Source of the DNA: Streptomyces sp. NBC_01454
Lineage (GTDB): Bacteria; Actinomycetota; Actinomycetes; Streptomycetales; Streptomycetaceae
Direction of reading: 5' to 3'
NCBI RefSeq assembly: GCF_036227565.1
Contig: NZ_CP109461.1
Location: 558,001 to 622,000, forward strand
Length of the DNA stretch: 64,000 nt
Every line of letters starts with the position of its first letter. Positions within the stretch are counted from its first letter, which is position 1. Below are positions 292-19,200 of the stretch, piece by piece. Below the pieces are notes generated by a model. That model ran no database searches. It was given only the letters and a program-made list of their open reading frames with translations, and was not told the origin of the DNA. The position numbers were made by a program, and so were the translations under genes.

Positions 292-2667
292 TCAGCCGAA
301 CGACGGCACGATCTTCTTCTTGCCGCCCTCTTCCTTCCAGGCAACCTTCGCGTCAAAGGTCTTACCCTTCGACGAGACGAACCCCGTGCCTTGGATGGTC
401 TTGCCGGCCGCCAGGTCACGCCTTTGCACATCGGTAAAAGTCACCTGGCACCAGGACCGCGGCGGCTCGTCGCCAGAGTCGAAGTCGGGGACGATCTTCT
501 TCGCCTTCGCGTCCCAGCTGACCTTGCAGCCGAAGGTCTTGCCGGTCCTCGCGCTGACGAAGTCGTTGATCTCCAGCGCCTGGCCCGCCAGGAGCGCCGT
601 GACCTCCGCCGGCGTGAACGTCCGGCCGGACCACTTCGTCGGCCTGTCGGGTACTGTCAGCTGGAACCCGACGAACTTGCGGCCCTTGAAGTCGCCGACG
701 CCGAGCGCACCGGTGGCCGTGAACGGCTTGTCCGCCGTGTTCGTGGCCTCGAACGTGATCGTCTCGCCCGCCAGCAGCTTCGCCACCTCGTCATCGCTGA
801 GCTCGTGGCCCGACCAGACCTTCTTGAAGGTGACCTTCTTCGGCCCGCCCGGAGCGGCCTGCCACACGCCCTCGGCGCGAGCGGCGATCTGGGTCTCACT
901 CAGGCCCAGCTCGGAGCGCATGGACGCGGCGTTCTTCGACATCGTGGCGATGTCCTCGCAAACCCAGTCGGCGACGACTGCGAGGCGCTCCTCGGCGGTC
1001 GCGGTCCCGGCTGCGATGTCGCGCATGTCGGCGTAGACCTTCTCGGTGAGCCCGAGGTCGCCGATGCGCGTGCCCGGCAGCAGCCGCCAGCTCATCTCGC
1101 CGGCCTGCGCGAGCCTGAGCTTCCGGCCCTTCTCCGAGAGCAGCGGGAACTTCGCCCTGTCGCTGGTGACCTCCGAGTACGTCGAAGTGCGGGTCGCGCC
1201 CGTGCCCACGTCGCGCTTCTCCAACTGCTTCATGAGCCACTTCATAGTCGGGTGTTCAGGGCGCTTGTTCGCACCCTCGAAGACGAACGGCGCCGCAGTT
1301 CGGCCCAGACCCTTGCTGCTCTCGTTCTCGTCGCCCTCGGCGGAGTCGTCGCCGGCGTCCGGATCGAACACGGCCCGCCAGCCAGGGCTCTTGGGCACGT
1401 TGGCGATGCCGACGAAGTCCGGGTACTTCTCCACGTGGCCCTTCTGCTGCTCGTAGAGGTAGTCCTCGGCGAGCATGGCCAGGTAGTTCTTCGCGAGCAT
1501 CTCGTAGATGAGGCGTCCGGCCTTGCCGTACTTGTGCTCGACCCCGTCCAGCGAGGAGGGCACCTTCGGTCCCGGACGATTCGCGCCGTGCGCGCCCTGG
1601 GGCTTCACGTGTGTGGACCGAGGCTGGCGGTGCGTCAGAAGCGCAGCGTCGACGCCGACCACGGCGGTGATCTTGTCGACCAGCGGGGCGAGGTCCTTGA
1701 ACTGCTCGGGCGTGATCGTCTTGTCCTCCGTGCGCGGGTACGAGACGACCTGGTCCTCGTACATCTTCTGGTAGGTCGAGAGCGTGAGGTTCGCCTTCAC
1801 GCCCTTGCCGACGAGCATCGAGGACAGGGACGCCAGGTCAAGCAGCTTCGGCGGCGCGGTCTTCTTGTCCGCCTTGCTGTCCAGGACCACAGGGGAGGGG
1901 CCGTACTGCTGCGGCACCTGACCCTTCTGGTCGAATCGCGGCTCGTCCGGGTTCGTGTACATGACGTCGTTCTCGTCGCGGAAGCGGTTCTGAAAGAACG
2001 GCTTCTTGACGTACTCGGCATAGGCCTTCTGCTGGTCGCCGACAAGAGAGACCATCGCCGACTTCAGCCGGCCCTGGCGCAGCACGAGGTCCTGGCCGGA
2101 CTGGCGGCCCATCGCTGTGGCGATGCGCGTGAACTGCATGGAGAGGAAGTCCCACTGCGAGCGGTACATCGCCTTGCGGTAGTCGCCCTCGTCCTGCATG
2201 GACTTCACCGGCCGGCGCTGTTCGAACGCCTTCTGGATCGACGCCTTCGACTCATCGGTGAACTCCATGCGGCTGAACTTCATGCCATGGAAGCCGAGTT
2301 CGTCGATCGCCTCCCAGAAGAGCAGGTCGCCCTCGCCGGACGGATCCAGGTCCGTGGCGATGACGATTTCGTCGCCGCGGCCGAGCGCCGCACGCAGAGC
2401 CTTGATGACGTCTGCGACGTTCTTCTGCGGCTCGCGCTTCCACGTCAGGTCTTCCGGGTTCCACGGCAAGTTGCCCAGGTCCCACTTCTGATAGGCGTCC
2501 GCGAGTGAGGAGTCCACCATCGCGTGCGGCTGGGCGAACTCGTAGAGATGACCCCTCAGGCTCGCCACTTCGTAGGCCGTGCCCTTGTAGCTGCCCTTCG
2601 TCCCGCCGAGGGCGCTGGCCATGTTCCTCGCTGCGCTCGGCTTCTCTGCGACCACGATCGCGACCAT
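292..2667 (-). CDS. Type IA DNA topoisomerase (TopB/plasmid type)
   Basis: A 791-aa type IA topoisomerase, which relaxes or decatenates DNA through a 5'-phosphotyrosine intermediate. The Toprim domain starts at residue 1: the conserved Glu is E8 in VVAEKPSAA, and the acidic triad lies in ATDLDPSGEGD (D106, D108, E112). The active-site tyrosine is Y310 in VVSYPRTED, matching the S/TYPR-S/T-D signature. From about residue 610 there are three repeats of the pattern T..EV..LLAG..I, ending in a GKTFDAKVAW-like unit, as in topoisomerase III C-terminal repeats. The ATG at 2667 has AAGGAG 8 bases upstream. Plasmid copies of this enzyme usually serve replication or conjugative transfer; that role is inferred. 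The gene is intact. Confidence 0.93.
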   Translation of the reverse strand: MVAIVVAEKPSAARNMASALGGTKGSYKGTAYEVASLRGHLYEFAQPHAMVDSSLADAYQKWDLGNLPWNPEDLTWKREPQKNVADVIKALRAALGRGDEIVIATDLDPSGEGDLLFWEAIDELGFHGMKFSRMEFTDESKASIQKAFEQRRPVKSMQDEGDYRKAMYRSQWDFLSMQFTRIATAMGRQSGQDLVLRQGRLKSAMVSLVGDQQKAYAEYVKKPFFQNRFRDENDVMYTNPDEPRFDQKGQVPQQYGPSPVVLDSKADKKTAPPKLLDLASLSSMLVGKGVKANLTLSTYQKMYEDQVVSYPRTEDKTITPEQFKDLAPLVDKITAVVGVDAALLTHRQPRSTHVKPQGAHGANRPGPKVPSSLDGVEHKYGKAGRLIYEMLAKNYLAMLAEDYLYEQQKGHVEKYPDFVGIANVPKSPGWRAVFDPDAGDDSAEGDENESSKGLGRTAAPFVFEGANKRPEHPTMKWLMKQLEKRDVGTGATRTSTYSEVTSDRAKFPLLSEKGRKLRLAQAGEMSWRLLPGTRIGDLGLTEKVYADMRDIAAGTATAEERLAVVADWVCEDIATMSKNAASMRSELGLSETQIAARAEGVWQAAPGGPKKVTFKKVWSGHELSDDEVAKLLAGETITFEATNTADKPFTATGALGVGDFKGRKFVGFQLTVPDRPTKWSGRTFTPAEVTALLAGQALEINDFVSARTGKTFGCKVSWDAKAKKIVPDFDSGDEPPRSWCQVTFTDVQRRDLAAGKTIQGTGFVSSKGKTFDAKVAWKEEGGKKKIVPSFG

Positions 2668-4566: not shown

Positions 4567-4628
4567 GGCGCATCGAACGCACGGTTGCACGGCCGGAGAG
4601 GCGTTGTCAGTGGGGGGTGAGATGCTGC

Positions 4629-4671
4629 GGCGGTGGTCTTCCCCCGGTTCGGTCGGGGGAAGACCACCGCC
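4629..4671. terminator. Bidirectional terminator between convergent genes
   Basis: An 18-bp perfect stem (GGCGGTGGTCTTCCCCCG at 4629-4646, complement at 4654-4671) with a 7-base loop. It lies between the integrase relic (plus) and the DUF397 gene (minus). There is no clear T run, but it is placed where both transcripts must end. Confidence 0.6.
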
Positions 4672-4682
4672 GTCTGCACTGA

Positions 4683-4904
4683 TCAGAGTTCTCCGCTCAC
4701 CATGGCCCTCCGGAACATGCTCCACTCGGTGGCCGTGTACCGCAGCGGCTCCAGGTGCGGGTTCTTCGAGTCGCGGACGGCGATGCCACCTCCGGGGAGG
4801 TCGGTGATTTCGACGCAGTTGTGCTCAGGACCGCTTTCCTTCGCCTTGCGCCAGTGGGCGGCGGAGAGGTCGTACTCGTACAGCTCCGCCTTCTGTTCGC
4901 TCAC
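4683..4904 (-). CDS. DUF397 small regulatory protein
   Basis: A 73-aa protein with the DUF397 pattern: W.K....E.NCVEI near the centre, then IAVRDSKNPHLEPL and a final W..F. DUF397 proteins are nearly always encoded beside an XRE/DUF5753 regulator in streptomycetes, where such pairs modulate development or antibiotic production (AbaA/WhiJ-type loci). Its GTG start overlaps the stop of the XRE gene by four bases (GTGA), so the two are translationally coupled. It ends at the hairpin at 4629-4671. Confidence 0.9.
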   Translation of the reverse strand: MSEQKAELYEYDLSAAHWRKAKESGPEHNCVEITDLPGGGIAVRDSKNPHLEPLRYTATEWSMFRRAMVSGEL

Positions 4905-5767
4905 TTGCGGTGCCCTTCTTCCAACTTGGTGATCCGTGCGAGTGTGTCCTCCACCGACAGGGCCGCGGCGCGGATGCGCTCGACCGCGTGGGCGAAGGGT
5001 TGCGCACCGTCGCCCTCAACGTAGGTAGCTCCGCTGAGGTTCTCCAACAGCACGACATCTGGGGTGGGGCCGGGGAAGCGGACCAGGCCGAAGCCGCCGA
5101 ACATCCCCGGATGGGCGGTGGAGTCCATCGGCATGAGCTGCACCGTGACGTTCGGCAATTCCGAGACGTCGAGGAGCTTGCGCAGCTGCTCGCGCATGGT
5201 GACCGGCCGGACCTCGAAACGGGTGTGCAGGGCGGCTTCGTGGATGATCGCCCACAGCTGCAACGGGTTCCCGGGCCGGGTCAGGACCGCCTGCCGGGCC
5301 TGGCGGACCTCGGCGAGGGCGACGATCTCCTCCGACGTGCGCGTCTCGCTGGTCGCGGTCATCGTCTCGCGTGCGTACGCGGCGCTCTGCAGCAGTCCGG
5401 GGATGGCCAGCGGCGCCCACTCCCGGATGTGCTCCGCGTCGTCCTCCAGCGAGATGTAATCCGCGTACGCCGGGGAGACGACACCGCTGTAGGTCTGCCA
5501 CCAGCCTTTCTTGCCCGCGTCCTTGGCGAGGTTCTCCAGCGCGGTGAAGACCTCCGGATCCGTGACGTCGTACGCCTTGAGCAGGGCGGTGACCTCGGCG
5601 GGGCGGATGTTCTGCCGGGCGTTCTCGATCTTGGAGAGCTTGGGCACCTTCCAGCCCATGGCGACGGCGGCGTCCTCGAGGGTCATGCCGGCGTCGTTGC
5701 GGAGCTTCTTCAGTGTCTGGCCCAGGCGCCGCCGGCGGACGGTGGGCTCAACAGGCTGGTGCGGCAT
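4901..5767 (-). CDS. XRE-family regulator with DUF5753 domain
   Basis: A 288-aa regulator. The helix-turn-helix spans about residues 13-70 (LGQTLKKLRNDAGMTLEDAA, then KVPKLSKIENARQNI). The C-terminal DUF5753 region covers about 95-285, including the typical PGLLQSAAYAR and QLMPMDSTAHPGMFGGF segments. The start is an ATG at 5767. It is divergent from the HATPase gene at 5966, and the shared intergenic region holds an 8-bp inverted repeat (5898-5924) that is a plausible operator. The set XRE + DUF397 + HATPase is a classic Streptomyces regulatory module. The ligand and targets cannot be read from sequence. Confidence 0.92.
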   Translation of the reverse strand: MPHQPVEPTVRRRRLGQTLKKLRNDAGMTLEDAAVAMGWKVPKLSKIENARQNIRPAEVTALLKAYDVTDPEVFTALENLAKDAGKKGWWQTYSGVVSPAYADYISLEDDAEHIREWAPLAIPGLLQSAAYARETMTATSETRTSEEIVALAEVRQARQAVLTRPGNPLQLWAIIHEAALHTRFEVRPVTMREQLRKLLDVSELPNVTVQLMPMDSTAHPGMFGGFGLVRFPGPTPDVVLLENLSGATYVEGDGAQPFAHAVERIRAAALSVEDTLARITKLEEGHRK

Positions 5768-5897
5768 ATGCGCAGTGTCGCACCGCCCTGGGCAGCAACA
5801 CGACCCAGTTCACGGGACTGCTTGGCGAGATTAGGCAGAAAGGTTGCGGCCTGCCCGCGAAAGGGTAGATGCTCGACAGCCGATGGACGCGCTCGGT

Positions 5898-5924
5898 CAA
5901 CTAGCCGTTGCGGTGCGCTAGTTG
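5898..5924. promoter_or_regulatory. Inverted repeat in the divergent regulator promoter region
   Basis: CAACTAGC at 5898-5905 and GCTAGTTG at 5917-5924 form a perfect 8-bp inverted repeat with an 11-base spacer, between the divergent XRE and HATPase starts. A TTGCGG...TAGATG promoter-like pair lies just before it on the plus strand. It is a likely operator for the XRE regulator; this is inference. Confidence 0.5.
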
Positions 5925-5965
5925 CTCGGCGCCGTGCGGCCTCGTGCCGCGGGTTGGAGGCAGCC

Positions 5966-6433
5966 GTGTTGGTGGAAGGATCGACAGGGTCGTCGACGCC
6001 CGGGTTCTACCTGCAAGTCCGTCAGGCCGGGTTCGCCGTCCACATGAACGCCTCGGCCGCCCATCTGCGGTCCCTGCGCGCCCTGGCTGACAAGACCCTC
6101 TGCGCGGCCGGCCTGGGCGGGGGCATCAGCGATGCGGCCCAGCTCGTCGCCTCGGAGCTGATCGGGAACGCGGTACGGGCCTGTGGGGACCACGTCCCCC
6201 TGGTCGTGGAGGTCGACGCCGAGGAAAGCGGCGTATCGGTGAAGGTCCACGACCCCATGGGGGACCGACTGCCCAGCCGCCGCCCGATCGCGCTCGACGA
6301 CGACAAGTCTGAAGGCGGGCGGGGGCTGGGGCTGGTGGACATCCTGGCACCCGGCTGGACCGTGCGCCCCACTCCGGTCGGCAAGCAGGTCGTGTGCAGA
6401 CTCCCGCACTCCGAAGGAGACCTCCGTGGGTGA
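5966..6433 (+). CDS. HATPase (anti-sigma/RsbW-like) protein
   Basis: A 155-aa GHKL ATP-binding protein of the kind that acts as an anti-sigma factor kinase or partner of XRE/DUF397 pairs. The N box is seen in AQLVASELIGNAVRAC (E..GNA). The G1 region is VKVHDPMGD, and the G2-like glycine loop is EGGRGLGLVDILA. The GTG start at 5966 is chosen because GGAGG lies 5 bases upstream; upstream sequence in the same frame is opposite the XRE gene and is not coding. The next gene starts inside its last codons, so it heads a coupled pair. Confidence 0.85.
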   Translation: MLVEGSTGSSTPGFYLQVRQAGFAVHMNASAAHLRSLRALADKTLCAAGLGGGISDAAQLVASELIGNAVRACGDHVPLVVEVDAEESGVSVKVHDPMGDRLPSRRPIALDDDKSEGGRGLGLVDILAPGWTVRPTPVGKQVVCRLPHSEGDLRG

Positions 6434-6779
6434 GACCCCGTCCGAGCAGATGCCCTTCCGGATCGCGTACGACGAGACGGCCCGACAGCTGGTCGTGTGG
6501 ATGACCTACGGCAGCGGCCCCAAGCAGACCACCCGGCGCAAGGAGGTCGGATCGGTGGAGGCTCTGGCTGTCACGGTGGCCCGCCACCGCTACGAAGCGT
6601 TCCTGCAGGGCCAGCTCGCCGACGAGCTCACCCGTGCCGGCGTCGACCACCTCGGTGCGGATCCGGCCCGGCTGGAGGCCGCCGTACGCGCACTGCTGGA
6701 TCCGGCCTGCTCCGTCTCGCTGAGCACCCTGCTGCACGGCCCGACACCGCCGCCCACGGCAAGCTCCCCGCCACCCTGA
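6426..6779 (+). CDS. Hypothetical protein coupled to the HATPase
   Basis: A 117-aa protein. The GTG start overlaps the HATPase stop by 8 bases and has GAAGGAG upstream. The first 55 residues look like a small beta domain (FRIAYDETARQLVVWMTYG, then TTRRKEVGSVEAL), followed by helices and a Pro-rich tail. The family is not recognised. Coupling to the HATPase suggests a role in the same regulatory unit. Confidence 0.7.
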   Translation: MGETPSEQMPFRIAYDETARQLVVWMTYGSGPKQTTRRKEVGSVEALAVTVARHRYEAFLQGQLADELTRAGVDHLGADPARLEAAVRALLDPACSVSLSTLLHGPTPPPTASSPPP

Positions 6780-6903
6780 ACCTTCGCCCCACGGCGGACA
6801 GCGATCCTGCTGCCGCACGCCTGAGCTGAATCGCGCCGCCGCAACGCCGCCCAGCCCGTGGGCTGGGCGTATCCACGTTGTCTGCCGATCGAAGGAGGGC
6901 ACC

Positions 6904-8331
6904 ATGCCCCGCTCCGCGCACACGCCAGACAGCGGCCGGATCGTCATACTCGGGGCCGGACCATGCGGTCTGTCCTGCGCCGACGAGCTGGCCCGCCTCG
7001 GCCATCGCGACTTCGTGCTGCTGGAGGCCGCCTCCGCGCCGGGAGGGCTCGCCTCCTCCGTGGTGGACGAGGCCGGCTTCACCTGGGACCTAGGCGGCCA
7101 CGTGGTCTTCTCCCACTTCGGCGAGTTCGACCGGTTGCTGGCCGGGCTCTTCACCGGCGAGGAGCTGCTGCGCCACGACCGCTCCTCCTACATCCGCTAC
7201 GGCGACGGATGGATGCCCTACCCCTTCCAGCAGCACCTCCATCACCTCCCGCCGAAGGACGCCGCGGCCTGCCTGCGCGACCTCCTCACAGCCCGCCCGG
7301 ACGCCCGCGGGGACTCCGCGGCTCCGGCGGACTTCGCGACGTGGCTGGTCACGGTGTACGGCCAGGCCCTGGTGGACCGCTTCTTCGCCCCGTACAACAC
7401 CAAGGTCTGGGCGACGCCGCTTGAGGACATGGGCTCGGCATGGGTGGCCGAGCGGTTGGCCCCCGTCGACGTCGAGGAGATCCTCGCTGCGTTCGTCGGC
7501 ACCGCGGCACCCGCGCGCCGGTGGGGCCCGAACGCCACCTTCGCCTTCCCCACGTCCGGCGGCACCGGCGAGATCTGGCACCGCATCGGCGCCGGCCGCC
7601 TGCGCACCCGGGCCCGCGCGGTTGCCGTCGATCCGGCGACCCGCGCCGTCACCCTCGCCGGCGGCGAGAGGATCGGCTACGACCGCCTTGTGGCCACCGG
7701 ACCGCTAGACCAACTCGCCGCCATGACAGCCACCTGCCCGGCCCCGCTCCGGAGGGCCGCCGGGAGCCTGCGGCACACCACCGTGGCCATGGTCGGCCTC
7801 GGCTATCGGACACCGACCACCGACGCGAGGTCGTGGCTGTACTTCCCGCAGCCCGACGTGCCCTTCTACCGGGCCACGAACTTCAGCAAGTACGCGCCCG
7901 CCAACGTCCCCGACGCCCAGGTGGGCGCCTACAGCGCCTGGATGACCGAGACCTCCCTCACCGCCGGCCAGGGCCTGGACCGCGATACTCTGGTCCGCTC
8001 GTGCGACCAGGCGCTTCGCCGTCACGGCCTGGTGCCTTCGCAGGCGCCGCTGGCCAGCGCCCATGTCGAGGTGATCCCGTACGCCTACCCGGTGCCCGCC
8101 CTGGGACGGGACGAGGTCCTGGCGCAGGTGATGCCGTGGATGGAAGAGCGCGACATCTACCCCCGGGGCAGGTTCGGGACCTGGCGCTACGAGATCGGCA
8201 ACATGGACCACGCGGTCAAGATGGGCATCGACATCGCCCGCCGGCTGGTGAACGGAACGCGCGAGGAACTCCTGGTCTCCGCACCCTCCGGTCTCTCCGT
8301 GTCTGCGGCCCGGGTGGAGTGCCGGTCATGA
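6904..8331 (+). CDS. FAD-dependent oxidoreductase, UDP-galactopyranose-mutase/amine-oxidase-like
   Basis: A 475-aa flavoprotein. The Rossmann fold begins at residue 12 (RIVILGAGPCGLSCADEL, GxGxxG). A GGLASS/GGHVVF region and a YPFQQHLHHLP segment resemble UDP-galactopyranose mutase-like proteins. The C-terminal FAD signature is GRFGTWRYEIGNMDHAVKMG. RBS GAAGGAG precedes the ATG at 6904. Its stop overlaps the next start (ATGA). UGM-like enzymes isomerise nucleotide sugars, and two glycosyltransferases lie downstream, so sugar chemistry is plausible. Relatives also oxidise amines or porphyrins, so the substrate is open. Confidence 0.82.
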   Translation: MPRSAHTPDSGRIVILGAGPCGLSCADELARLGHRDFVLLEAASAPGGLASSVVDEAGFTWDLGGHVVFSHFGEFDRLLAGLFTGEELLRHDRSSYIRYGDGWMPYPFQQHLHHLPPKDAAACLRDLLTARPDARGDSAAPADFATWLVTVYGQALVDRFFAPYNTKVWATPLEDMGSAWVAERLAPVDVEEILAAFVGTAAPARRWGPNATFAFPTSGGTGEIWHRIGAGRLRTRARAVAVDPATRAVTLAGGERIGYDRLVATGPLDQLAAMTATCPAPLRRAAGSLRHTTVAMVGLGYRTPTTDARSWLYFPQPDVPFYRATNFSKYAPANVPDAQVGAYSAWMTETSLTAGQGLDRDTLVRSCDQALRRHGLVPSQAPLASAHVEVIPYAYPVPALGRDEVLAQVMPWMEERDIYPRGRFGTWRYEIGNMDHAVKMGIDIARRLVNGTREELLVSAPSGLSVSAARVECRS

Positions 8332-9413
8332 CCGGCACGAAGACGGCCACGGCGCTGTTCGCCGGACACCGCTTCCACGTCGTCACCGACGCCGCCTTCG
8401 ACGCCGCCCAAGCGCGGTACCTTCGGGCCTTCGTCCCCGAACTCCAGCTCGCCCCATCGTGCGGGGAGGAGACGACAGTGCGGGTCCGTCGCGACGCGGG
8501 CCTCTTCCAGGACCGGATGGTCCGCGGCGCGGGCGCCGCGTCGCTGACCGTGGTGCCGTTCCGCGGCGAGCCGTACCTCCGCTGCCTGCTCGACGAGGTC
8601 ACCTGGTGGCGGCCCGCCCCCGACACGCACTTACCCCCCGACCACCTCTACTCGAGGGACGCGGCGGGCAGGCAGACGGTGCTGCTGAAACCCGGGGTCG
8701 AGCGCGGCGAGCGGTACCTGATGCGCGTCGTCCGCGAGGTCGTCCTGCGGTGTTCCGAGAGCCGTGGCTGGGCCTCCTTCCACGCCGCGGCCGCCGCTCT
8801 CGACGACCGCGGCGTGCTCATCGCCGCTCCCTCCGGGGCGGGCAAGACCACCGTGCTGACCGCGCTGGCCGCCCACCACGGGGCCGACCTGATCGCCTCC
8901 GACCGGGCACTGGTGACCGCCGACGCGGGGATGGTGGCCGGGGTGCCGATCTCCGTCCGGATCGGCGGGGGCACCCTGTCCGCACTGGCCCCGCGCGAGG
9001 GCCTGCCGAGCCCGCACAACCTGTCCGGAGCCTTCGGCAGCGCCCGCAAAGCAGCCCTGACCCCACACGAGTTCGCCCGCGCCTTCTCCTCCCGCGTGCG
9101 GGAGACAGCGCCGCTGCGGCTCGTCGTCGTCCCCCGCCTCCGCGACGACGACCAGGCCCTGAGCAGTCGCATCCTCAAGTCCGCGAGGGCCCGCACCGCC
9201 CTTGCCGCCGTGTGCTGCACCCCGCACGACGAGGACTGGCTCGAGCCCTGGTTCGCCGTCCGGACCCGGCCCGCGGACGACCTGGCCGACCAGGCCGCCG
9301 CCCTCATCGACAGCCTCATCGCCACGGTGCCCGTCCTCCAGGTCACGGCCGGCGTGCACAGCCCCGGCCTGGTGGAGAAGCTCGCCGACGCGGTGACGGG
9401 GAGGCTTACGTGA
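8328..9413 (+). CDS. HprK-like P-loop kinase/NTPase
   Basis: A 361-aa protein whose central P-loop reads APSGAGKTTV (about residue 165), preceded by GVLIA as in HPr-kinase-related and PqqD/lasso-cluster-associated kinases. An aspartate-containing strand (LIASDRALV) follows. The N-terminal 150 residues look like a separate beta-rich domain (VRVRRDAGLFQDRM and on). ATG 8328 overlaps the previous stop (ATGA), and its own stop overlaps the next start (GTGA). HprK relatives phosphorylate proteins or small molecules; the substrate here is unknown. Confidence 0.78.
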   Translation: MTGTKTATALFAGHRFHVVTDAAFDAAQARYLRAFVPELQLAPSCGEETTVRVRRDAGLFQDRMVRGAGAASLTVVPFRGEPYLRCLLDEVTWWRPAPDTHLPPDHLYSRDAAGRQTVLLKPGVERGERYLMRVVREVVLRCSESRGWASFHAAAAALDDRGVLIAAPSGAGKTTVLTALAAHHGADLIASDRALVTADAGMVAGVPISVRIGGGTLSALAPREGLPSPHNLSGAFGSARKAALTPHEFARAFSSRVRETAPLRLVVVPRLRDDDQALSSRILKSARARTALAAVCCTPHDEDWLEPWFAVRTRPADDLADQAAALIDSLIATVPVLQVTAGVHSPGLVEKLADAVTGRLT

Positions 9414-9706
9414 CTGTCAGCCGCATAGCCCTGGTCGGGCCGGTGGCCTCCGGAAAGTCGACGCTGTCCGCAGCGATCTCCGCCCACACCGCCCTGCCCC
9501 GCATCGACCTCGACGAGCTGTTCTGGGGGCCGAACTGGACACCCCTGGACACCCCCATCTTCCACAAGGGCGTCCGTGACCGCCTCGCCGGACCGGCATG
9601 GATCGCCGACGGCAACTACGGCGGCGAGGTCGCCGAGATACTCCTGGACCGCGCCGAGCTGGTCCTGTGGCTCGATCTGCCGCTGCGCGTGTGCCTGCCC
9701 CGGCTA

Positions 9707-10804
9707 GGGGGCGTATTGGGTTGTGATCAATTTGTGGGATTGGTCCTCGTGGCTGGGCCTGATCCGGTAGATCGTCTTGTATGACGCGGATGCAACTGAC
9801 GGATAGGGAATGGGAGTTCATCGGCCCGTACCTGCCGATCGGCGAGTACGGGCCGTACCCGGAACGGCTGCGGCAGCAGTTCGAGGGTGTGATCTGGCGG
9901 TTCCGGACGGGCGGGCAGTGGCGGGAGATGCCGCAGGAGTTCGGCGCCTGGCCGACCGTCCACAACCGCTTCCGCCAGTGGCGTGATGCAGGTGTCTTCG
10001 AAGCCCTGCTGGAGGGTCTGATCACGGAAGCCGCCAAACGGGGCGGGGTGGACTTGTCCCTGGTCAGCGTGGACTCCACCACCGTGCGGGCCCACCATGA
10101 CGCTGCCGGGATGCACCTCGGCCCGGACGTCATCACCGCCCTGGAGAAGGCGGCCGTCGAGGAGGAGAAGGCCCGGCAAAAGGGGGCGGCCCGGAAGGAC
10201 AAGACGGGCGGGAAGCCGAATACGACCCGGGGCAGGCAGAGCGGCGCCGAATCCGACGCCGACACAAACTCCGCCTGAAAGCCGCTCTGCTCGGACGCTC
10301 CAGGGGCGGGCAGACCAGCAAGATCCACCTCGCCGCCGACCGCGGGTGCCGCCCGCTGGCGTTCATCCTGACCGCGGGGCAGGCTGCGGACAGCCCGCAG
10401 TTCGTCCCCGTGCTCGAGAAGGTACGGGTCCGTGGGCCCGTCGGTCGCCCCCGCATCAGGCCCGGTGCAGTCGCCGGGGACAAGGCCTATTCATCCCGCG
10501 GCAACCGTTCCCATCTGCGTAAACGCCGCATCAGGGCAGTCATCCCGGAGAAGAGGGACCAGGCCGCCAACCGCAAGAGGAAGGGCCGCAGGGGCGGCCG
10601 GCCCGTCAGTCACGACACTGATCTCTACAAGGAGCGGAACACCGTCGAGCGCCTGATCAACAAGCTGAAGGCCTGGCGAGGCATCGCCACACGCTTCGAC
10701 AAAACGCCCGAGAGCTACCTCGCCGGCCTCCACCTTCGAGCCTCAATGATCTGGATCAAGGACCTCACCCAGACCACTCCTTGATCACGACCAAATACGC
10801 GGCC
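9707..10804 (+). mobile_element. IS5-family insertion sequence, copy 1 (1098 bp)
   Basis: The ends match 20 of 24 bases as inverted repeats (GGGGGCGTATTGGGTTGTGA against GGCCGCGTATTTGGTCGTGA, both followed by TCAA). They are flanked by a TA target duplication (9705-9706, 10805-10806) in a CTAG context, as in the IS427-type branch of IS5. The element is identical to copy 2 at 34510-35607 except G10404 against A35207. It interrupts the FlaR-like gene. One DDE transposase is encoded in two frames. Confidence 0.95.
9781..10784 (+). CDS. IS5-family DDE transposase made by -1 frameshifting, copy 1
   Basis: The first frame (9781-10278, 165 aa) carries the DUF4096-type N-terminus (LTDREWEFIGPYLP) and the first catalytic Asp in SVDSTTVRAHH. 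The second frame holds LLGRSRGGQTSKIHLAAD, the second Asp in AGDKAYSS and the Glu in YKERNTVERLINKLK. The -1 frame is open from the heptamer A AAG GGG at 10179-10185 through to 10784, so slippage there would give one full-length protein with all three catalytic residues. The copy therefore looks active. No other frame change is needed. Confidence 0.88.
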
Positions 10805-11066
10805 TAGTCAACCGCTCGCTGCGCCGGGCCGCCACCCGCGAGGAGCTGTTCGCCGGAAACCGGGAGAGCTACCGCCACCTGCTGGCTGCGGACTCCATCC
10901 TGCGCTGGGGCCCGATGCACCACCACCGTCACCGCCGCCGCTGGTCCGCCCGCCTCCACCCCGACCACACGCCCGGCCTGACGGTGGTGCGCATCGACCG
11001 GCCCGCCGCCATCACCCCGCAGCTGCGCCGGCTCGGCCTGCTGCCCGCAACAGGAAGGGGACGCGC

Positions 11067-12086
11067 GTGATCGCCTCCGTCGTCCGCGTGCCCTGGCACA
11101 CCGCCCACGGCGGCTACGACCGCCTCCTGGACCACCTGCCCGAAGTCCGCCGCATCACCACGCCCCGCCACCCGAATGCGAGACGAGCCTTCACGGCCGC
11201 CCACCGTGTACTCGGCCCCCGCTGCCCGCTGCCGTTCTACCCGCCCGAGCACTTCGCCACCGACCTTCGCGTCCTCGCCTCCCGCCAGCCGGCGCACGTC
11301 CTATACGGGGACGAACAGTTCTGGTTCTCCCGCCACCGCACCGGCCCGACCGCCGTCACCTACCACCAGCCGCCCGACCAGCTCGCCCGGCTACTGCCGA
11401 TCAAGGTCTGGCGGTCCCTGGCCCCGCAGGCCGAACAGATCATCGTCCTCGACCCTTACCAGCAGGCGTTCTTCTGCGACCTGCTCCCGGCCCAGCGGGT
11501 GCATCTGGTGCCACACGGCATCGACACCGCCGCCTTCACCCCCGCCGACGCACCCCTGCAGCCCGGCCGGCCGCTGGTGCTGACCGTCGGCTGGTGGCTG
11601 CGCGACTTCCACACCCTCGACGCCGTCCACGACCTGCTGCACCGCCGCCACGGCCAGGACATCGAGCTGACCGTCGTCACCCGGCAGGCCGCCTCGCGCC
11701 CCTGGCACCCGGCCGCCCGCATCCTGGAAGGGATCAGCGAACAGGAGCTGATCGCCCTGTACCGGCGGGCGGCGTTCCTGCTGCTGCCCCTGACCGGGGC
11801 GAGCGCCAACAACGCCCTGCTGGAAGCCCTCGCCTGCGGTACCCCGGCCGTCGTCACGGACATCGGCGGCATCCGGCACTACGCCGACGAGGGCCCGGCT
11901 GCCGTCCATGTCCCGCCCGGCGACGCGGCGGCCGCAGCCGACGCCGCCGACAAGCTCCTCGCCGAGCTGGGCACCGCCGACCACACCGTACGGCGTGCGG
12001 CGGCCCGCGCGCGTGCCGAGTTCTTCGCTTGGCCGCGGGTCGCCGACGACGTGCGCGCCGTCTATCAGCTGTTGGGGGAAGCGTGA
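11067..12086 (+). CDS. Glycosyltransferase, GT4-like (GT-B fold)
   Basis: A 339-aa GT-B glycosyltransferase. A donor-side domain begins at PLVLTVGWWLRDFHTLDAV. The loop LPLTGASANNALLEALACG followed by TPAVVTDIGG is the EX7E-like signature region of GT1/GT4 enzymes. The N-terminal acceptor domain includes VTYHQPPDQLARLL and HLVPHGIDTAAF. The GTG start overlaps the stop of the FlaR-like gene, and its stop overlaps the GTG of the membrane glycosyltransferase at 12083. It probably acts on a lipid- or protein-linked acceptor made within the cluster. Confidence 0.85.
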   Translation: MIASVVRVPWHTAHGGYDRLLDHLPEVRRITTPRHPNARRAFTAAHRVLGPRCPLPFYPPEHFATDLRVLASRQPAHVLYGDEQFWFSRHRTGPTAVTYHQPPDQLARLLPIKVWRSLAPQAEQIIVLDPYQQAFFCDLLPAQRVHLVPHGIDTAAFTPADAPLQPGRPLVLTVGWWLRDFHTLDAVHDLLHRRHGQDIELTVVTRQAASRPWHPAARILEGISEQELIALYRRAAFLLLPLTGASANNALLEALACGTPAVVTDIGGIRHYADEGPAAVHVPPGDAAAAADAADKLLAELGTADHTVRRAAARARAEFFAWPRVADDVRAVYQLLGEA

Positions 12087-13669
12087 GCGCCGCCCAGGTG
12101 TGGTTGGACGTCGTGGTGCCGGTTCTCGTGACCGGGCTGCTGGTCCGCGCGGTCTGGGCCGCCCTCGCGGTCGAGGCGAGTGCGCGGTGGCTGCTGTCCA
12201 CCCGCGCGCACCGCCCCGCCGACGTGGACGAACAGGCGCCTTGGCTGGTGGTGTTGCTGCCGATGCTCCGCGAGCAGGCTGTCGCCGCCGAGTCGATCGC
12301 CGCGTTCACCGGCCTCGACTACCCCGCCAGCCGCGCGGCCGTCGCGGTCATCACCACCGAACGCGAGCACACCGCCCGCGCTCAGCACCGCGTCCGCCTG
12401 CCGGAGCTCGCCGCGCTGCCCACGCTGACGGCAGCCGAGCTGCGGGGCCTGTTCCCCGCCTCGCGCTGCCGCGCCGTTGCCGAGCACGTGAATGCCACCC
12501 CGTGCGGCGAACGCCTGGCGGTGCTGACCAAGCTGTTCGACGCCGAGCCGAGCACCGCCGACATCGTGACCGCCCTGACCGCCAGTCACCTGCAGGGGCT
12601 GCCGCTGGTGCACCTGCACCAGCCCGACGTCGGCGGGCGAAAGCCCGGACAGCTCAACTTCGCCCTCGACCATCTGCCCGACGTACTCGGTCCGCTCGGC
12701 TGGCGCGAGGACGCCCACGTCCACGACACCTTCGTCCTGGTGTACGACGCCGATGCAGTCCCCGACCGGGCCACCCTGACCGCCTTCACCGACGCCGCCG
12801 CCGAACACCGGTCGTCTACCGGCCGGATGCCAGCACTGATCCAGCAGCAGCGGCTCCCGCTGCTGACCCGCCGCCCCTTCCCGCGCGGCCTGGCCGGCCT
12901 GCTGCTGACCGAGGAGTGGGTGTACCAACTGCGGCGCTCCCTCGGCATCGAACTTGCCCGCGTACGCCTCCACCAGTGGCTCACACGCTCCCGGCTCCCG
13001 GAGACGGTCCGGGTGTGGCTGCGGCCGATGGTCTACGCCGTCGGCTGCGGCATGGCCGTCCACCTCCCCGCCCTGCGCCGGCTCGGCGGCTTCCCCGAAC
13101 CGATGGAAGACCTCGGCAGCGGACACCGACTCTCCCTCCTCGGCGCCGACTTCGCACCGTCCGCCGCCCTGGTCCTGGACGAGCCCTACACCGACACCAC
13201 CGGACTGACCAACCTCCACGCGATCGCGTTCACCGCCTCCGCCCGACCTGACCGCCACGCCCGAGCCGTCGCCCAGCTGCCCAGCGGCCTCTCCCGCCCG
13301 GCCAGGACCGCCCTGATGCTGCGGGAGTGGGCGGACGAAGCCGCCTGGCTCCTCGGCGCCCCGCTGATGGCCGCCGCCGTAGCCAGCGCCTGGTGGGCCG
13401 GCCCCTGGTGGGCCGGGCTCGCAGTCGTCGGTGTCCTGTTGCACGGGCCCGTCACCACCGCCCGGCTGCTCGCCCTGGCACCGGCCCTGCACCACCGGGT
13501 CACCCCGCCCGCCACCACCGGACCACCGTCCCGCTCTACTGCAGCGCGGCCGATCGCGCTCGTCGCCGCCAGCCCCCTCCAGCCCTTCGTCCGGCTGGTC
13601 GGGCCCTGGCGGCTGATCTGCGCCAAGACCACTGGACGCCGCCTCGGCTTCGGTAAGACTGAACGCTGA
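12083..13669 (+). CDS. Membrane glycosyltransferase, GT2 family
   Basis: A 528-aa protein. An N-terminal membrane segment (about residues 6-32: VVVPVLVTGLLVRAVWAALA) is followed by the GT2 entry strand WLVVLLPMLREQ and the DxD-like VLVYDADAVPD. A long acceptor region contains TEEWVYQLRRSLG and GGFPEPMEDLGSGHR. C-terminal membrane segments lie at about 435-470 (LMAAAVASAWWAGPWWAGLA). The GTG at 12083 overlaps the previous stop; an upstream extension in the same frame would overlap the GT4 gene fully. Processive or polyprenyl-phosphate-dependent transfer is possible, but the product is unknown. Confidence 0.82.
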   Translation: MSAAQVWLDVVVPVLVTGLLVRAVWAALAVEASARWLLSTRAHRPADVDEQAPWLVVLLPMLREQAVAAESIAAFTGLDYPASRAAVAVITTEREHTARAQHRVRLPELAALPTLTAAELRGLFPASRCRAVAEHVNATPCGERLAVLTKLFDAEPSTADIVTALTASHLQGLPLVHLHQPDVGGRKPGQLNFALDHLPDVLGPLGWREDAHVHDTFVLVYDADAVPDRATLTAFTDAAAEHRSSTGRMPALIQQQRLPLLTRRPFPRGLAGLLLTEEWVYQLRRSLGIELARVRLHQWLTRSRLPETVRVWLRPMVYAVGCGMAVHLPALRRLGGFPEPMEDLGSGHRLSLLGADFAPSAALVLDEPYTDTTGLTNLHAIAFTASARPDRHARAVAQLPSGLSRPARTALMLREWADEAAWLLGAPLMAAAVASAWWAGPWWAGLAVVGVLLHGPVTTARLLALAPALHHRVTPPATTGPPSRSTAARPIALVAASPLQPFVRLVGPWRLICAKTTGRRLGFGKTER

Positions 13670-13705
13670 ACCGCCCCAACCCTTGATCACGAGTGGGAGC
13701 TACCT

Positions 13706-14176
13706 GTGACTGAACCCGCTACCGCGACCGTCCGCAACGCGGCCAAGGCCGTCGTTCTGAACGACGGCCGCGTCCTGCTCCAGCGCGCCCACTGGGAGGG
13801 ACAGGACTGCTACTTCCTGCCCGGCGGCGGCCAGCACCCCGGCGAGACCCTCGGCACCACGGTCCGCCGCGAGGTCCTCGAGGAGACCGGCCTGGACGTC
13901 ACACCCGAGCGTCTGCTGTGGCTGCGCGAGTACATCGGCGCCAACCACGGCGGCGCCCCCGAAGACCACCGGGTCGAAGCGATCTTCCTGTGCCGGCCCG
14001 AGGGCGACCCGGACAAGCTTGGCGGCCACGCCGAAGACGACGTGCAGACCGGACTGGAATGGGTGGAGCTGGAGAAGGTGCCCGGCCTCAACCTGCTGCC
14101 CCACGGCCTGCGCACCCTGATCGCCGACCTCACCCACGGCGAGCCCCCCACCCGCTATCTCGGCGACATCGCCTGA
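13706..14176 (+). CDS. NUDIX hydrolase
   Basis: A 156-aa protein with a complete Nudix box, GX5EX7REUXEEXGU, reading GGQHPGE, TLGTTVR, REVLEETGL at about residues 41-63. It hydrolyses a nucleoside diphosphate linked to another group. The GTG start has GGGAG 7 bases upstream. In this cluster it could trim a nucleotide-sugar or phosphorylated product. The next gene follows after 4 bases. Confidence 0.92.
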   Translation: MTEPATATVRNAAKAVVLNDGRVLLQRAHWEGQDCYFLPGGGQHPGETLGTTVRREVLEETGLDVTPERLLWLREYIGANHGGAPEDHRVEAIFLCRPEGDPDKLGGHAEDDVQTGLEWVELEKVPGLNLLPHGLRTLIADLTHGEPPTRYLGDIA

Positions 14177-14180
14177 CGCC

Positions 14181-14963
14181 GTGTCGAGGATCGACGGCCG
14201 CGTCCCCGACGGCGCCACCGAAATCACCACCGGCCAGGCAAACCGCGTCTGGTACATCGGCGGACGCGAGCCGTACGTCCTCAAGCACTACAGCGACCCC
14301 GCCCGTGCCGCCAACGAAGCCGCCGCCCTCCGACTCCTCACCCACCATCACGCCCCCAGCCCCCGCCTGCTCCACGCCGATGTGGAGGGACAGCCGGCCT
14401 GGACCGCGCAGAGCGCCGTCCAGGCCCAGCCTGGCCCCGCCGAACAGTTCCTGGATGACCTCGCCGGCCCGCTCGCCGCAGTTCACGCCATCGGCGGAAC
14501 CCACTTCGGGCGTCTCGCCGGAGCCACCCGCCACCCCACCTGGCGCGACTACCTCCACGACCGCCTGAACCTCTACACGGCCACAACACCCGATCTCGCT
14601 ACCGCTGCGGCAGCCCTCCGCCGAGACCTCGACCGAGTGAACCTCGACATCGAGCCGCGCCTGCTCCACCACGACCTCCAACCCGGACACCTCGTCCGCA
14701 CCACAGACGGTCTGCAGCTCCTGCTGGACTGGGAACTCGCCGCCTTCGGTGACCCGATCTCCGACCGCGCCCGCCTCGCCGTACGCCTATGCCTGCTCTC
14801 GCCGCAGGCCGTACTCGCCCCCGGGGCCGCTCCAGCTGCCCATCAGCGCCTGGACCTGTACTGGCGCCTCCACCTCCTCGCCGATGCGGCCCTGGCCACG
14901 GACCCAGCAGTCCGCGCACACGCCCTGTCCCTCACTGCTCGACCGCCCCGCCGCGCACAATGA
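14181..14963 (+). CDS. APH-family phosphotransferase
   Basis: A 260-aa protein-kinase-like small-molecule kinase. The ATP lysine is probably in EPYVLKHYSD, the catalytic loop is RLLHHDLQPGHLV and the metal-binding Asp is in LLLDWELAAFGDP. In the usual H.D....N loop the Asn is replaced by His, which is unusual because that Asn binds metal. GTG start, 4 bases after the NUDIX stop. The substrate may be the cluster's sugar product; an antibiotic-resistance role cannot be assigned. Confidence 0.82.
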   Translation: MSRIDGRVPDGATEITTGQANRVWYIGGREPYVLKHYSDPARAANEAAALRLLTHHHAPSPRLLHADVEGQPAWTAQSAVQAQPGPAEQFLDDLAGPLAAVHAIGGTHFGRLAGATRHPTWRDYLHDRLNLYTATTPDLATAAAALRRDLDRVNLDIEPRLLHHDLQPGHLVRTTDGLQLLLDWELAAFGDPISDRARLAVRLCLLSPQAVLAPGAAPAAHQRLDLYWRLHLLADAALATDPAVRAHALSLTARPPRRAQ

Positions 14964-14993
14964 CTTGCAGATCTTGACCAACCGGAGGCTGGC

Positions 14994-15648: not shown

Positions 15649-16224
15649 TTGATCCGGGTGCGACCCAGCCAGCAGATGCGCGATCTCGGCGTCGTTCAAT
15701 ACGGCGCGCCCATCCTGGGTGAGCCGGCTCGCTACTTTGCACTCCCTGACGAGCGGGAGACCGCGGGTACCGTCGTCGGCCAACTCCTCGACGCTATGGA
15801 ACGCATCCGCCGCGCGCACGACTTCTCCGGCAAGGGCCTGGGCGTGGCCGCCCCACAGATCGGCATCGGCCGGGCCGCAGCGGTCATCCAGCGCCCTGGG
15901 GCCGACCCCATCGTGCTGCTCAACCCCGTCATCACCGCCGCCTCCGCGGAGATGGACGAGAAGTTCGAAGGGTGCCTGTCACTCTTCGACGTGCGCGTCC
16001 CGGTTCCCCGGCCGTTGCGGATCACGGTGGAGACGGTGACGCCGGACGGCAGTGCGGCGACTGCGGTCTACGAACGCGGCGAGGCGCGGCTCATCGCGCA
16101 CGAGATCGATCACCTTGACGGTCTCGTCCTGCTGAACCGCATGCGGCCCGGCGTGAAGCCGGTCCCCGTCGAGGAGTACCGCAAGAGGCCCGAAGCCACC
16201 GGTAGGGCCTGGTCGTACGAGTAG
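15649..16224 (+). CDS. def: Peptide deformylase
   Basis: Up to 191 aa. It removes formyl groups from nascent N-termini using a metal ion. All three signatures are present: GLGVAAPQIG, EGCLS (metal Cys) and AHEIDHLDG (HExxH). The start is uncertain: TTG 15649 is the longest, GTG 15658 and ATG 15676 are alternatives, and none has a strong RBS. It is a second-copy type of enzyme; extra deformylases in streptomycetes can give resistance to deformylase inhibitors such as actinonin, but nothing here proves that role. It lies 18 bases before the helicase gene. Confidence 0.9.
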   Translation: MIRVRPSQQMRDLGVVQYGAPILGEPARYFALPDERETAGTVVGQLLDAMERIRRAHDFSGKGLGVAAPQIGIGRAAAVIQRPGADPIVLLNPVITAASAEMDEKFEGCLSLFDVRVPVPRPLRITVETVTPDGSAATAVYERGEARLIAHEIDHLDGLVLLNRMRPGVKPVPVEEYRKRPEATGRAWSYE

Positions 16225-16242
16225 AGGAGAGGCAGCACGATC

Positions 16243-19200
16243 GTGGGTAGGCACGCCCGCCCAGGACCGCCGGACCAACCGTCCCGTGCGGTCCCGAGCA
16301 TCGACCCCGACGATCTGCTCGCCCCGTATCACCGGCGCAGGCGCGCACCGATGGACGTCTACCGTCGGCACCGGCCCGTCGGCGGCGGGGCCAGCCACGT
16401 GCGGCCCGAGGAACCGCGGGTTCTGGAGTCCTGGGACGGCTTCGCGTACCTACCCGAAGGCACCGCGCCGAACCTCGCGGCCGCGCAAGCCTGGGCGGCC
16501 GCGGGCCGGCGCAGGGCGGGTAGGCCATCGGCTCGATCGCCCCGTGGGGATCTGGGCGAAAACGGCCTCTCCACGGACGGGAATCCGGATCATGGAGGGG
16601 TGGAGGACTGGTACGACTGCAGCGACCCGGCCGAACTGCGCATCCGCCTCGATGTGGCGCTCGAGGAGAACGCCGAACTACGCGCGGAGCTCGCCGAGGT
16701 GCGCGCCGAGAACCTGCGCCTGCGCAGCCGCCCGGGAGTTCCCGCAGCCGACGCGCCGCGGGCGCTGCCACCGGTCCCCGAGCCTCCCGCACCGGTCATT
16801 ACGGAAGGCGGGCACGGGCTGCCGTACGCGGACGCGACCTCCGGCACGGAGGCAAAGATCGCGCTGTTCCGGGCCCTGTTCGCCGGCCGCGAGGATGTCT
16901 ACGCCACCCGGTGGGTGAGCGCGAAGACGGGCCGGACGGGCTGGAGCCCCGCAGAGGACAACCCGTTCGCAAAGAACAAGAACGATGCCGAGCGGGTGTT
17001 CTGGCCGCTGACCGACAGAGCCGTCTACAACCACCTCTCCCGCCCCGAGCCCGGCGCCCGGGAGACCCACCTGGGGCTGTACCCACTGCTGGCAGACGAC
17101 ACCTGCCGCCTCCTTGCCGTCGACTTCGACGGCAAGGACGGCAGCGACTGGCGCGGCGACGCGGCCGCCTACGCCTCCGCCTGCCACGACGCCGGTGTCC
17201 CCGCCCTGCTCGAGGTCTCCCGCTCCGGGGCCGGCGCCCACGTATGGACCTTCTTCACCGCCCCCGTCGCCGCGTTCACCGCCCGCACGCTGGGGATGGC
17301 GCTGCTGCGCCGGGCGATCGACGTCCGCGGACAGATGACGCTGTCCAGCTACGACCGGCTCTTCCCCGCCCAGGACCTACTGCCGACGAACGCCAAGGGC
17401 AACGCCCGGTTCGGCAACCTGATCGCGCTCCCGCTGCAGGGGGCTTCCCGACTCAAGGGCACCACGGTGTTCTGCGACCCGCAGACCTGGGAGCCGTACC
17501 CCGACCAGTTCGCCCGCCTGTCCCAGGTCGAGCGGCTCTCCCCGACCCAAGTCGAGGCGCTCGTCGGCAAGCTCGGCGAGGTCAAGGCGGGCCCGTCGGC
17601 GACCGCGCCGGTCCTGCCGCCCAAGCCCCGGCGGCGCGCTCTGGGCAAAGCCCCCGAGGTCGTCGAGGCGCGCTTGTCGGCGATGCTCGCGATCTCAACC
17701 AAGGGCCTACCGACAGCCTTGGTCGCCGCGCTCAAGCACACGGCGTCGTTCCACAACCCGGAGTTCTACCGCCGCCAGAGCCAGCGGTACTCCACCTGGG
17801 ACACCCCGCGCCTAGTCTGCTCCTTCGACGCCACCGACCCGGACTGGATCAAGCTGCCGCGCGGCCTGCGCGATGAAGCGGCCCAGCTCATCGCCGTCGC
17901 CGGCGGCACGCTCACGGTCACCAGCGAACTCCCGGACGTCGAGCCGATCAACGCCCGCTTCACCGGCGAGCTGACCGACGTGCAGGCCCGCGCGGTCGAC
18001 GCGGTCACGGACCACACCAGCGGGGTGCTCGTAGCGCCGCCGGGCTCGGGCAAGACGGTCATGGCCTGCGCGCTGATCGCCCACCACGAGACGCCCACCG
18101 CGATCATCGTCAACCGCTCCGAGCTGCTGTCCCAGTGGCAGGACCGCCTGGCCACATTCCTCGAACTCGACGAGGGCCGCGTCGGTTCCCTGGGAGCGGG
18201 CAAGGACCGCCGCGGCCACGTGGTCGACCTGATCATGCTCCAGACGCTCAGCCACCGCGACGCCCCAGACGGCCTGCTGAACGGCTACGGCCTGGTGGTC
18301 GTCGACGAGTGCCACGCCGTGGGCGCACAGGGCGCCGAAGCCGCGATCCGCAAGGCCCGCGCCCCACGCTGGATCGGCCTGTCGGCAACCCCATACCGGG
18401 CGGATCAGATGGATCCGCTGATCACCATGCAGTGCGGACCCATCCGGCACGAGATCGCCGACACCAGCACCTTCACCAAGCACCTCATCGTCCACCCCAC
18501 CCCGTTCACCACCGACGAGCCAGGCAACGACGGAGCCTCCTTCCAGGCGATCTACACCGAACTCGCCGCGAACTCCGACCGCAACACCCAGATCGCTGCC
18601 GACATCGCCGACGCCGCCCGGCGCGGACGATGCAGCCTGGCCCTGACCAACCGCGTCGAACACCTCCACCAACTCGCCACCGCCCTCGCCACACACGGCA
18701 TCGAACCCCTGCTCCTGCACGGCGGCATGCCGCCGGCCGAACGGGCCCGCGTCCGCGCCCGCCTGACCGACGAGGCGACTACCCCGCTGGTGCTGCTGGC
18801 CATCGACAAGCTCGCCGGCGAGGGCTTCGACGCCCCCAAGCTCGACACCCTGTTCCTCACCAGCCCGATCTCCTTCAAGGGACGCGTGATCCAGCAGGTC
18901 GGCCGGATCATGCGCAACACCGAGTCGAAGAAGTCCCACGTCGAGGCGCACGACTACATCGACGCGGACGTGCCCTGGCTGGAACGCATGCACCACAAGC
19001 GGCGCCGCATCCTCGAACGCCGCGGCTTCACCGCCACCACCCCCGAGAACCTGCCCCAGCCGCCCGCCTACCACCCCGTTGTCCCCGCACGCCGCCGACC
19101 AGAGCCCTCACGAACCGCGACGAGACCGCCGGTGGCCGAGGTGCGGCGGTGGGCCAAGGACCAGGGCATGGACGTGCTACCGCGAGGCCGACTCCGCAGC

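Follow-up and report, generated by a model that had tools for sequence, protein, structure and literature searches.

A mobile cassette of Streptomycetaceae with a predicted eukaryote-type UDP-galactopyranose mutase and a possible phosphorylated galactofuranosyl product

A seven-gene block in the window

A stretch of 64,000 nucleotides from Streptomyces sp. NBC_01454 (NZ_CP109461.1, positions 558,001-622,000, forward strand), referred to as the window and numbered from its own first nucleotide, was analysed for a block of seven co-directional plus-strand genes, A to G, at positions 6904-14963. The coordinates of the genes, which were checked, and of an insertion sequence (IS) that interrupts gene C are as follows.

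6904..8331, plus strand: A, predicted eukaryote-type UDP-galactopyranose mutase (UGM), from a profile search against UGM chains in the PDB and from active-site residues
8328..9413, plus strand: B, P-loop kinase with a PEPCK/HprK fold
9410..9706, plus strand: C, 5′ part, FlaR-like P-loop kinase, IS-interrupted (PRK08118, E 4.5e-18 from the 5′ piece by itself)
10804..11070, plus strand: C, 3′ part (80% identity to residues 99-185 of the orthologue at locus L021)
11067..12086, plus strand: D, GT4-type glycosyltransferase (Glyco_trans_1_4, E 1.4e-16; GT4 relatives in the PDB)
12083..13669, plus strand: E, membrane-anchored GT2-type glycosyltransferase (no Pfam match)
13706..14176, plus strand: F, NUDIX hydrolase (PF00293, E 4.7e-18)
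14181..14963, plus strand: G, APH-type small-molecule kinase (PF01636, E 4.7e-20)
9708..10803 (1096 bp), no strand assigned: IS4/IS5-type insertion sequence, identified by Pfam DUF4096 in the transposase piece and by its ends and target duplication
9704..9707, no strand assigned: CTAG target duplication, left copy
10804..10807, no strand assigned: CTAG target duplication, right copy

Genes A to E overlap successively by four bases each (ATGA at 8328; GTGA at 9410, 11067 and 12083), and direct reading of all four junctions confirmed the original prediction for this DNA that these genes were built as one unit. The 4-base gap that it gave for the NUDIX and APH genes holds between F and G, whereas E and F are separated by 36 bases. 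The gene families that it had named (UGM-like, HprK-like and FlaR-like proteins and two different glycosyltransferases) were all recovered, as was an IS in one member of the set: the 1096-bp element with its CTAG duplication splits gene C, and its transposase piece matches DUF4096, described in Pfam as "putative transposase of IS4/5 family". On sequence grounds the insertion is recent, because a second full-length copy at window positions 34511-35606 (G000:C2:592511-593606) was reported by the search as 100% identical. A search of the host genome found no second C-like gene above E 4.7e-4, a match confined to the P-loop. As gene C is broken, the pathway in NBC_01454 is probably incomplete. The host genome comprises 9.46 Mb in five contigs, and the 639-kb contig that carries the window is probably a plasmid, since rpoB sits on the 8.36-Mb contig; the 639-kb contig gives just a 22-bit partial rpoB match.

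The cassette is conserved in order, rare and under purifying selection

A tblastn search with the seven proteins showed that A to G occur in one order and on one strand at 16 loci of Streptomyces and Kitasatospora, the window included (type I). Homologues therefore do co-occur outside the window, contrary to a possibility that the original prediction had raised. The 16 were counted after merging three duplicates (G229, G964 and G147/L027), and further same-strain duplicates are possible. Apart from the window, the type I loci are:

L021: Streptomyces sp. NBC_01334 plasmid
L022: S. cellulosae plasmid
L023 (= G229): Streptomyces sp. BHT-5-2 p1
L038 (= G964): Streptomyces sp. ST2-7A
L039 and L040: S. 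alkaliphilus and S. calidiresistens, respectively
L041 (= G147/L027): Kitasatospora humi
L024-L026, L028 and L065-L068: remaining loci

Thirteen of the 16 loci are free of lesions. The other three are damaged: the window by the IS in C, L038 by an in-frame stop in G, and L068 by a split in A together with a shortened F match; a stop in gene C of L065, which by its coordinates lies near the very end, was left out of this count. Partial sets were seen in G009 (L045), where E is present from residue 159 and is followed by F and G, and on an S. halstedii plasmid with A residues 6-175 alone (170 residues). The cassette genes are under purifying selection, with dN/dS values of 0.16-0.43 for the six window genes that are intact, measured against two sets of orthologues, and of 0.28 and 0.29 for gene C, compared between other loci only.

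The cassette is rare among the sampled genomes. B was found at E <= 1e-100 in 7 of 297 genomes of the family, all seven with A to G. The search for A (E <= 1e-40) hit 12 of 392 Streptomyces genomes, 8 of type I and 4 of type II, a sister cluster described below. An E relative lies near A in all 12 of these genomes; each of the 11 with a retrieved region (G952 left out) has a B relative there as well. With the threshold for B relaxed to E <= 1e-10, 16 family genomes were obtained (7 type I, 2 type II and 7 others), and in the last seven no A or E match was present near B at 1e-5. Gene E (E <= 1e-8, 396 genomes of the phylum) retrieved its own genome and the G009 remnant, with a first filter that may miss distant relatives; gene A (E <= 1e-60, 296 genomes of the class) retrieved its own genome and two galactose-operon relatives, and distant ones may likewise escape. 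The host genome has no second A-like gene at E <= 1e-5. A Gloeothece plasmid with a distant E relative (27%, 58% coverage) showed no other cassette member among 17 annotated neighbours.

The cassette moves horizontally as one unit

In loci lacking the upstream module described below, nucleotide similarity to the window starts at 6611-6937; it stops at 14564-14971, and the sequence beyond is unrelated in most loci. Exceptions on the left are L066 and L067, which share 4614 to 6612 or 6740 (81-82%), and L038-L040, which share 4605-5017 (93-94%), within the DUF397-XRE-HATPase module. Across 12 genomes (66 non-independent pairs), the pairwise identities of D and E were correlated with a Spearman coefficient of 0.90, compared with 0.17 for rpoB and D and 0.12 for rpoB and E. 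Relative to the host, G154 and G217 have rpoB identities of 97.4 and 97.1% and D identities of 73.2 and 73.7%, while G964 has 87.8% in rpoB and 90.4% in D. Because similarity ends near the cassette edges and D and E diverge together and not with rpoB, the block moves as a unit, which bears out the earlier suggestion that it is cargo of a mobile element. Mobility genes near the cassette include relaxases at two loci (L025 and L028) and resolvases at two others (L067 and L068). A large minus-strand open reading frame (ORF) at window positions 292-2667 resembles by eye what we take to be a type IA DNA topoisomerase, presumably frequent on conjugative elements.

Gene A is a predicted eukaryote-type UGM

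A profile built from 10 cassette A proteins matched UGM chains in the PDB over profile positions 8-464 (E 1e-112 to 6.6e-111, with 1e-112 to 2.4e-112 for the best chains). Fourteen of the 38 listed PDB matches lie at this level, all labelled UDP-galactopyranose mutase, beyond which E values weaken to 1e-6, for other FAD enzymes. In the same search amine oxidases and other related FAD enzymes, at 21-31 bits, came far below UGM, at about 380 bits, and a protoporphyrinogen or amine oxidase identity was rejected on this basis. The original prediction of a nucleotide-sugar-mutase-like flavoprotein is thus upheld, and the grouping with oxidases that it had named as a counter-indication was not found. 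By Pfam and NCBIfam, A falls among FAD amine-oxidase-like proteins; it stays below the cut-offs of the bacterial-type UGM model TIGR00031 (23.2 against 303.75 bits) and of PRK07208 (at best 169.9 against 389 bits).

In UGM, N5 of the reduced FAD attacks the anomeric carbon, and the sugar ring opens and re-closes (accessible text of PMC4192007 and PMC3624792). The active-site residues given there for TcUGM (His62, Val63, Arg176, Asn201, Tyr317, Arg327, Tyr395, Arg423, Tyr429 and Asn433; PMC4192007) are identical in A, 10 of 10, and invariant in the 10 cassette A proteins; the A proteins tested from type II (four) and from the outgroup (two) have all of them as well. As a control, three more distant PRK07208-type proteins were compared: of the ten residues, the one from Pantoea retains 9, the one from Bacteroides 6 and the one from Azospirillum 8. 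The two-glycine histidine loop GGH, a eukaryote-type feature (accessible text of PMC3624792), is present in A as G64-G65-H66 and is invariant. Gene A is therefore very probably a UDP-galactopyranose mutase, as judged from these similarities. Its nearest outgroup relatives (G1024 and G1059, from another family of the class) adjoin GT4-like, GalT-like and GH2-like genes, and galactokinase, GalT, GH2 and GT4 domains were confirmed by Pfam near that of G1024. L072 and L073 are galactose operons of actinobacteria in which eukaryote-type UGM relatives accompany GT4, GalT and GH2 genes and, in L073, galactokinase.

Three kinases and a NUDIX hydrolase

The B model folds like PEPCK/HprK and has a C-terminal kinase-domain fold with the P-loop, in agreement with the earlier HprK-like label; NCBIfam gives a weak match to HprK-related kinases. 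The intact C orthologue in L021 has 186 amino acids, and C would be a kinase of the nucleoside monophosphate/shikimate-kinase type in the scheme proposed below. F and G exceed the Pfam cut-offs for NUDIX (65.9 against 21.1 bits) and APH (72.8 against 23.2 bits). A third architecture was observed at L032-L036, where a FlaR-like P-loop protein (37% in L032, about 25% in L033-L036) has HprK-like kinases in its vicinity, a pair of them at each locus from L033 to L036; in L036, Pfam identified AAA_18, APH, PHP, an archaeal-type AdoMet synthetase and myo-inositol-1-phosphate synthase.

Two glycosyltransferases

D matches Glyco_trans_1_4 (61.4 bits, cut-off 27) and Glycos_transf_1 (49.7 bits, cut-off 26.4), and has a conserved Ala at position 245, presumably in the place of the first Glu of the GT4 EX7E motif. 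E gave no Pfam, NCBIfam or PDB sequence match. Its model folds like a cellulose-synthase-type GT2 (BcsA/hyaluronan-synthase type), with a DxD and a catalytic acid, which we take to be the GT2 motifs. Hydropathy shows one strong membrane segment only, and the C-terminal helices in the model are possibly membrane helices.

A sister cluster shares relatives of five of the seven genes

The type II cluster (G293, G205, G812, G868 and G952), which is larger, has an A relative (59-63%), followed by a DSPc-like gene, an E relative (about 30%), a pyridoxal-phosphate (PLP) decarboxylase, APH and NUDIX, and then by a PrnB/IDO-like protein, a GHMP kinase, a methyltransferase and an unknown protein. The 3′ part, in the four of five where it was retrieved, has a B relative (about 30%) and after it another APH and a HAD phosphatase. 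The relatives of F (37-44%) and of G (about 32-37% over part of the protein) are both weak. Types I and II thus have relatives of A, B, E, F and G as their common core.

Genes flanking the cassette

Five further features lie on the two sides of the cassette in the window.

4683..4904, minus strand: DUF397 protein (PF04149, E 2.3e-16)
4901..5767, minus strand: XRE/DUF5753 regulator (PF19054, E 6.2e-49; HTH_31)
5966..6433, plus strand: HATPase_c_2 regulator, start codon uncertain (PF13581, E 1.2e-9)
6426..6779, plus strand: small ORF of the regulator module (no Pfam match)
15649..16496, plus strand: peptide deformylase and start of a DUF6087 protein (PF01327, E 4.5e-29)

The DUF397 protein is 82-89% identical over 73 residues in L039, L040, L066 and L067, with a 37-residue match in L038. 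The XRE/DUF5753 regulator is kept at full length in L066 and L067 (88-89%) and as a remnant of ~40 residues in L038-L040. The HATPase_c_2 regulator (71-76% in L066 and L067) has counterparts upstream of the cassette in L022, L023, L024, L028 and L041, and the small ORF is 55-65% identical in L065 (54 residues), L066 and L067. Upstream of type II, Pfam identified DUF397, XRE-DUF5753 and HATPase_c_2 in G205, and XRE-DUF5753 and HATPase_c_2 in G812. In Streptomyces sp. ST2-7A, the region upstream of the cassette (L038:887-6369) holds a set with a P450-like protein that by eye resembles what we take to be a conservon.

Directly 3′ of the cassette, an extra peptide deformylase occupies 15649-16224; the deformylase-DUF6087 stretch recurs, at 84-85% nucleotide identity, in L021 and the G009 remnant L045 only. 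A 1003-amino-acid ORF follows at 16243-19254, combining DUF6087, a TOTE archaeo-eukaryotic primase, a DEAD/ResIII helicase and an Lsr2 domain, and is called PrimPol by PADLOC.

Discussion

We propose that the mobile cassette makes UDP-galactofuranose and builds a phosphate-bearing galactofuranosyl glycoside, a specialised metabolite in preference to a wall polymer; for this proposal as a whole the case is evenly poised. A would convert host UDP-galactopyranose to UDP-galactofuranose; B, C and G would place phosphates on the acceptor or on the product as it grows; two sugars would be added by D (GT4) and E (membrane GT2); and F would trim a nucleotide or pyrophosphate intermediate. E is the most likely galactofuranosyltransferase, with D adding another sugar, because only A and E (with the B, F and G relatives) are shared with type II; that E uses UDP-galactofuranose is about as probable as its opposite. 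The main argument for a small-molecule pathway is that the core of A, B, E, F and G is common to type II, and a specialised metabolite is somewhat likelier because type II also holds PLP, GHMP-kinase, methyltransferase and PrnB-like genes. More tentatively, and short of an even chance, types I and II may represent two lines within one undescribed family of phospho-galactofuranosyl specialised metabolites in Streptomycetaceae, with PEPCK/HprK-fold kinases and a membrane GT2 using UDP-galactofuranose as its core, and with type I as the minimal form spread by plasmids and islands.

Several points weigh against the proposed pathway. A to G include no dedicated exporter and no acceptor-making or lipid-carrier enzyme; the active-site residues by themselves discriminate weakly and would leave the nucleoside diphosphate (NDP)-sugar of A unfixed; the structure models of B and E were built from 10 and 9 sequences, respectively; and no known galactofuranosyltransferase (GlfT) is named among the 50 structural matches listed for E, a listing that may stop short of one.

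The strongest alternative is a surface decoration, in which D and E would make a galactofuranosyl phosphoglycan, a teichoic-acid-like polymer or a glycolipid at the membrane. The membrane segment of E and its cellulose/hyaluronan-synthase-type fold are usual for wall and capsule polymers, mobile variation of surface glycans is common in bacteria, and the structural neighbours of E include TarP/TarS and RmlT, presumably wall teichoic acid transferases. However, A to G lack a flippase, a polymer exporter, an undecaprenyl-phosphate sugar transferase and a ligase, three kinases and a NUDIX hydrolase are unusual in wall polymer loci, and the type II cluster resembles a small-molecule pathway. In our judgement a specialised metabolite is slightly favoured and a surface glycan rather unlikely; of the "phosphoglycan or glycolipid" of the original prediction, the cell-surface option survives at that lower level, and the type II genes make a metabolite somewhat likelier.

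A could instead act on an NDP-pyranose other than UDP-galactose and yield another furanose or an open-chain sugar, with the remaining scheme unchanged. PRK07208-type proteins, whose substrate is unassigned and whose NCBIfam name is "hypothetical protein", keep most of the ten residues, but the very strong full-length similarity of A to characterised UGMs, and the galactose genes adjoining its outgroup relatives, make this improbable. Less probable still is a role in phage defence or conflict, exerted by way of a modified nucleotide or a surface change. The cassette does travel on plasmids and islands, three loci have defence genes in its neighbourhood (PglZ in L021, Cas5e/Cas7e in L023 and a DNA cytosine methylase in L026), and the TOTE-type primase-helicase lies 3′ of it in the window. 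PADLOC, however, gave just generic weak FAD, P-loop and NUDIX matches on A to G (E <= 0.01), two of seven hand-picked flanking suspects gave nothing, the rate of such neighbours has no background reference, and the 15 pattern matches that E produced in a scan of viral contigs include no relative. That the genes are chance neighbours on a plasmid, as their presence in a few percent of genomes and the damage in the window and some other loci might suggest, was rejected as next to impossible given the order at 16 loci, the four start-stop overlaps, the joint D/E phylogeny and purifying selection; A to G are almost certainly a functional cassette.

UGM-based galactofuranose pathways are known already. 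For the mobile, kinase-rich seven-gene form and for type II, no description was found in the literature searched, which mostly excluded subscription papers, and the accessible part of PMC13118837 does not name the cassette; the earlier statement that the gene combination matches no known pathway stands, as none was found to match. If the proposal is correct, galactofuranose, a sugar absent from humans, would be tied to an unrecognised mobile pathway in antibiotic producers, the eukaryote-type UGM would gain a new bacterial setting, and PEPCK/HprK-fold kinases acting on small molecules would be indicated as an uncharacterised group. Intact copies on sequenced plasmids allow direct testing by heterologous expression.

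Comparison with known systems

E shares its fold and membrane anchor with the processive GT2 synthases BcsA and hyaluronan synthase and with PcManGT; it has no Pfam or PDB sequence match, and its own processivity is putative. The Streptomyces nucleoside GT2 enzymes AvpGT and NucGT, of which AvpGT uses UDP-Glc/UDP-Gal, offer another comparison (accessible text of PMC11959488), but AvpGT is of soluble length whereas E is membrane-anchored, and no sequence match to E was seen here. The window module has both domains of the Streptomyces XRE-DUF397 pairs, plus HATPase_c_2; such pairs influence antibiotic production in S. coelicolor (accessible text of PMC10364602), which fits the proposed reading, with regulation of the cassette itself putative.

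B shares the P-loop and overall fold with HprK/P, PEPCK, HprK-related kinases A/B and a FomB-type kinase. The likeness to PEP carboxykinase includes the N-terminal half, whereas HprK/P matches stop short of it, and B falls far under the cut-off of 200 bits for the HprK-related kinase A and B equivalogs (33.1 and 30.7 bits). C is by sequence a P-loop kinase like the FlaR-like "DNA topology modulation protein" (PRK08118/PRK07261), but its 5′ piece scores 65.9 bits against a cut-off of 215, and a role in DNA topology is unsupported. A, finally, resembles the eukaryote-type UGMs 4dsg and 3ute, presumably those of T. cruzi and A. fumigatus, over its full length, in all ten active-site residues and in the GGH loop, and differs from them in its setting, a bacterial host and a kinase-rich cassette rather than a wall-glycan locus.

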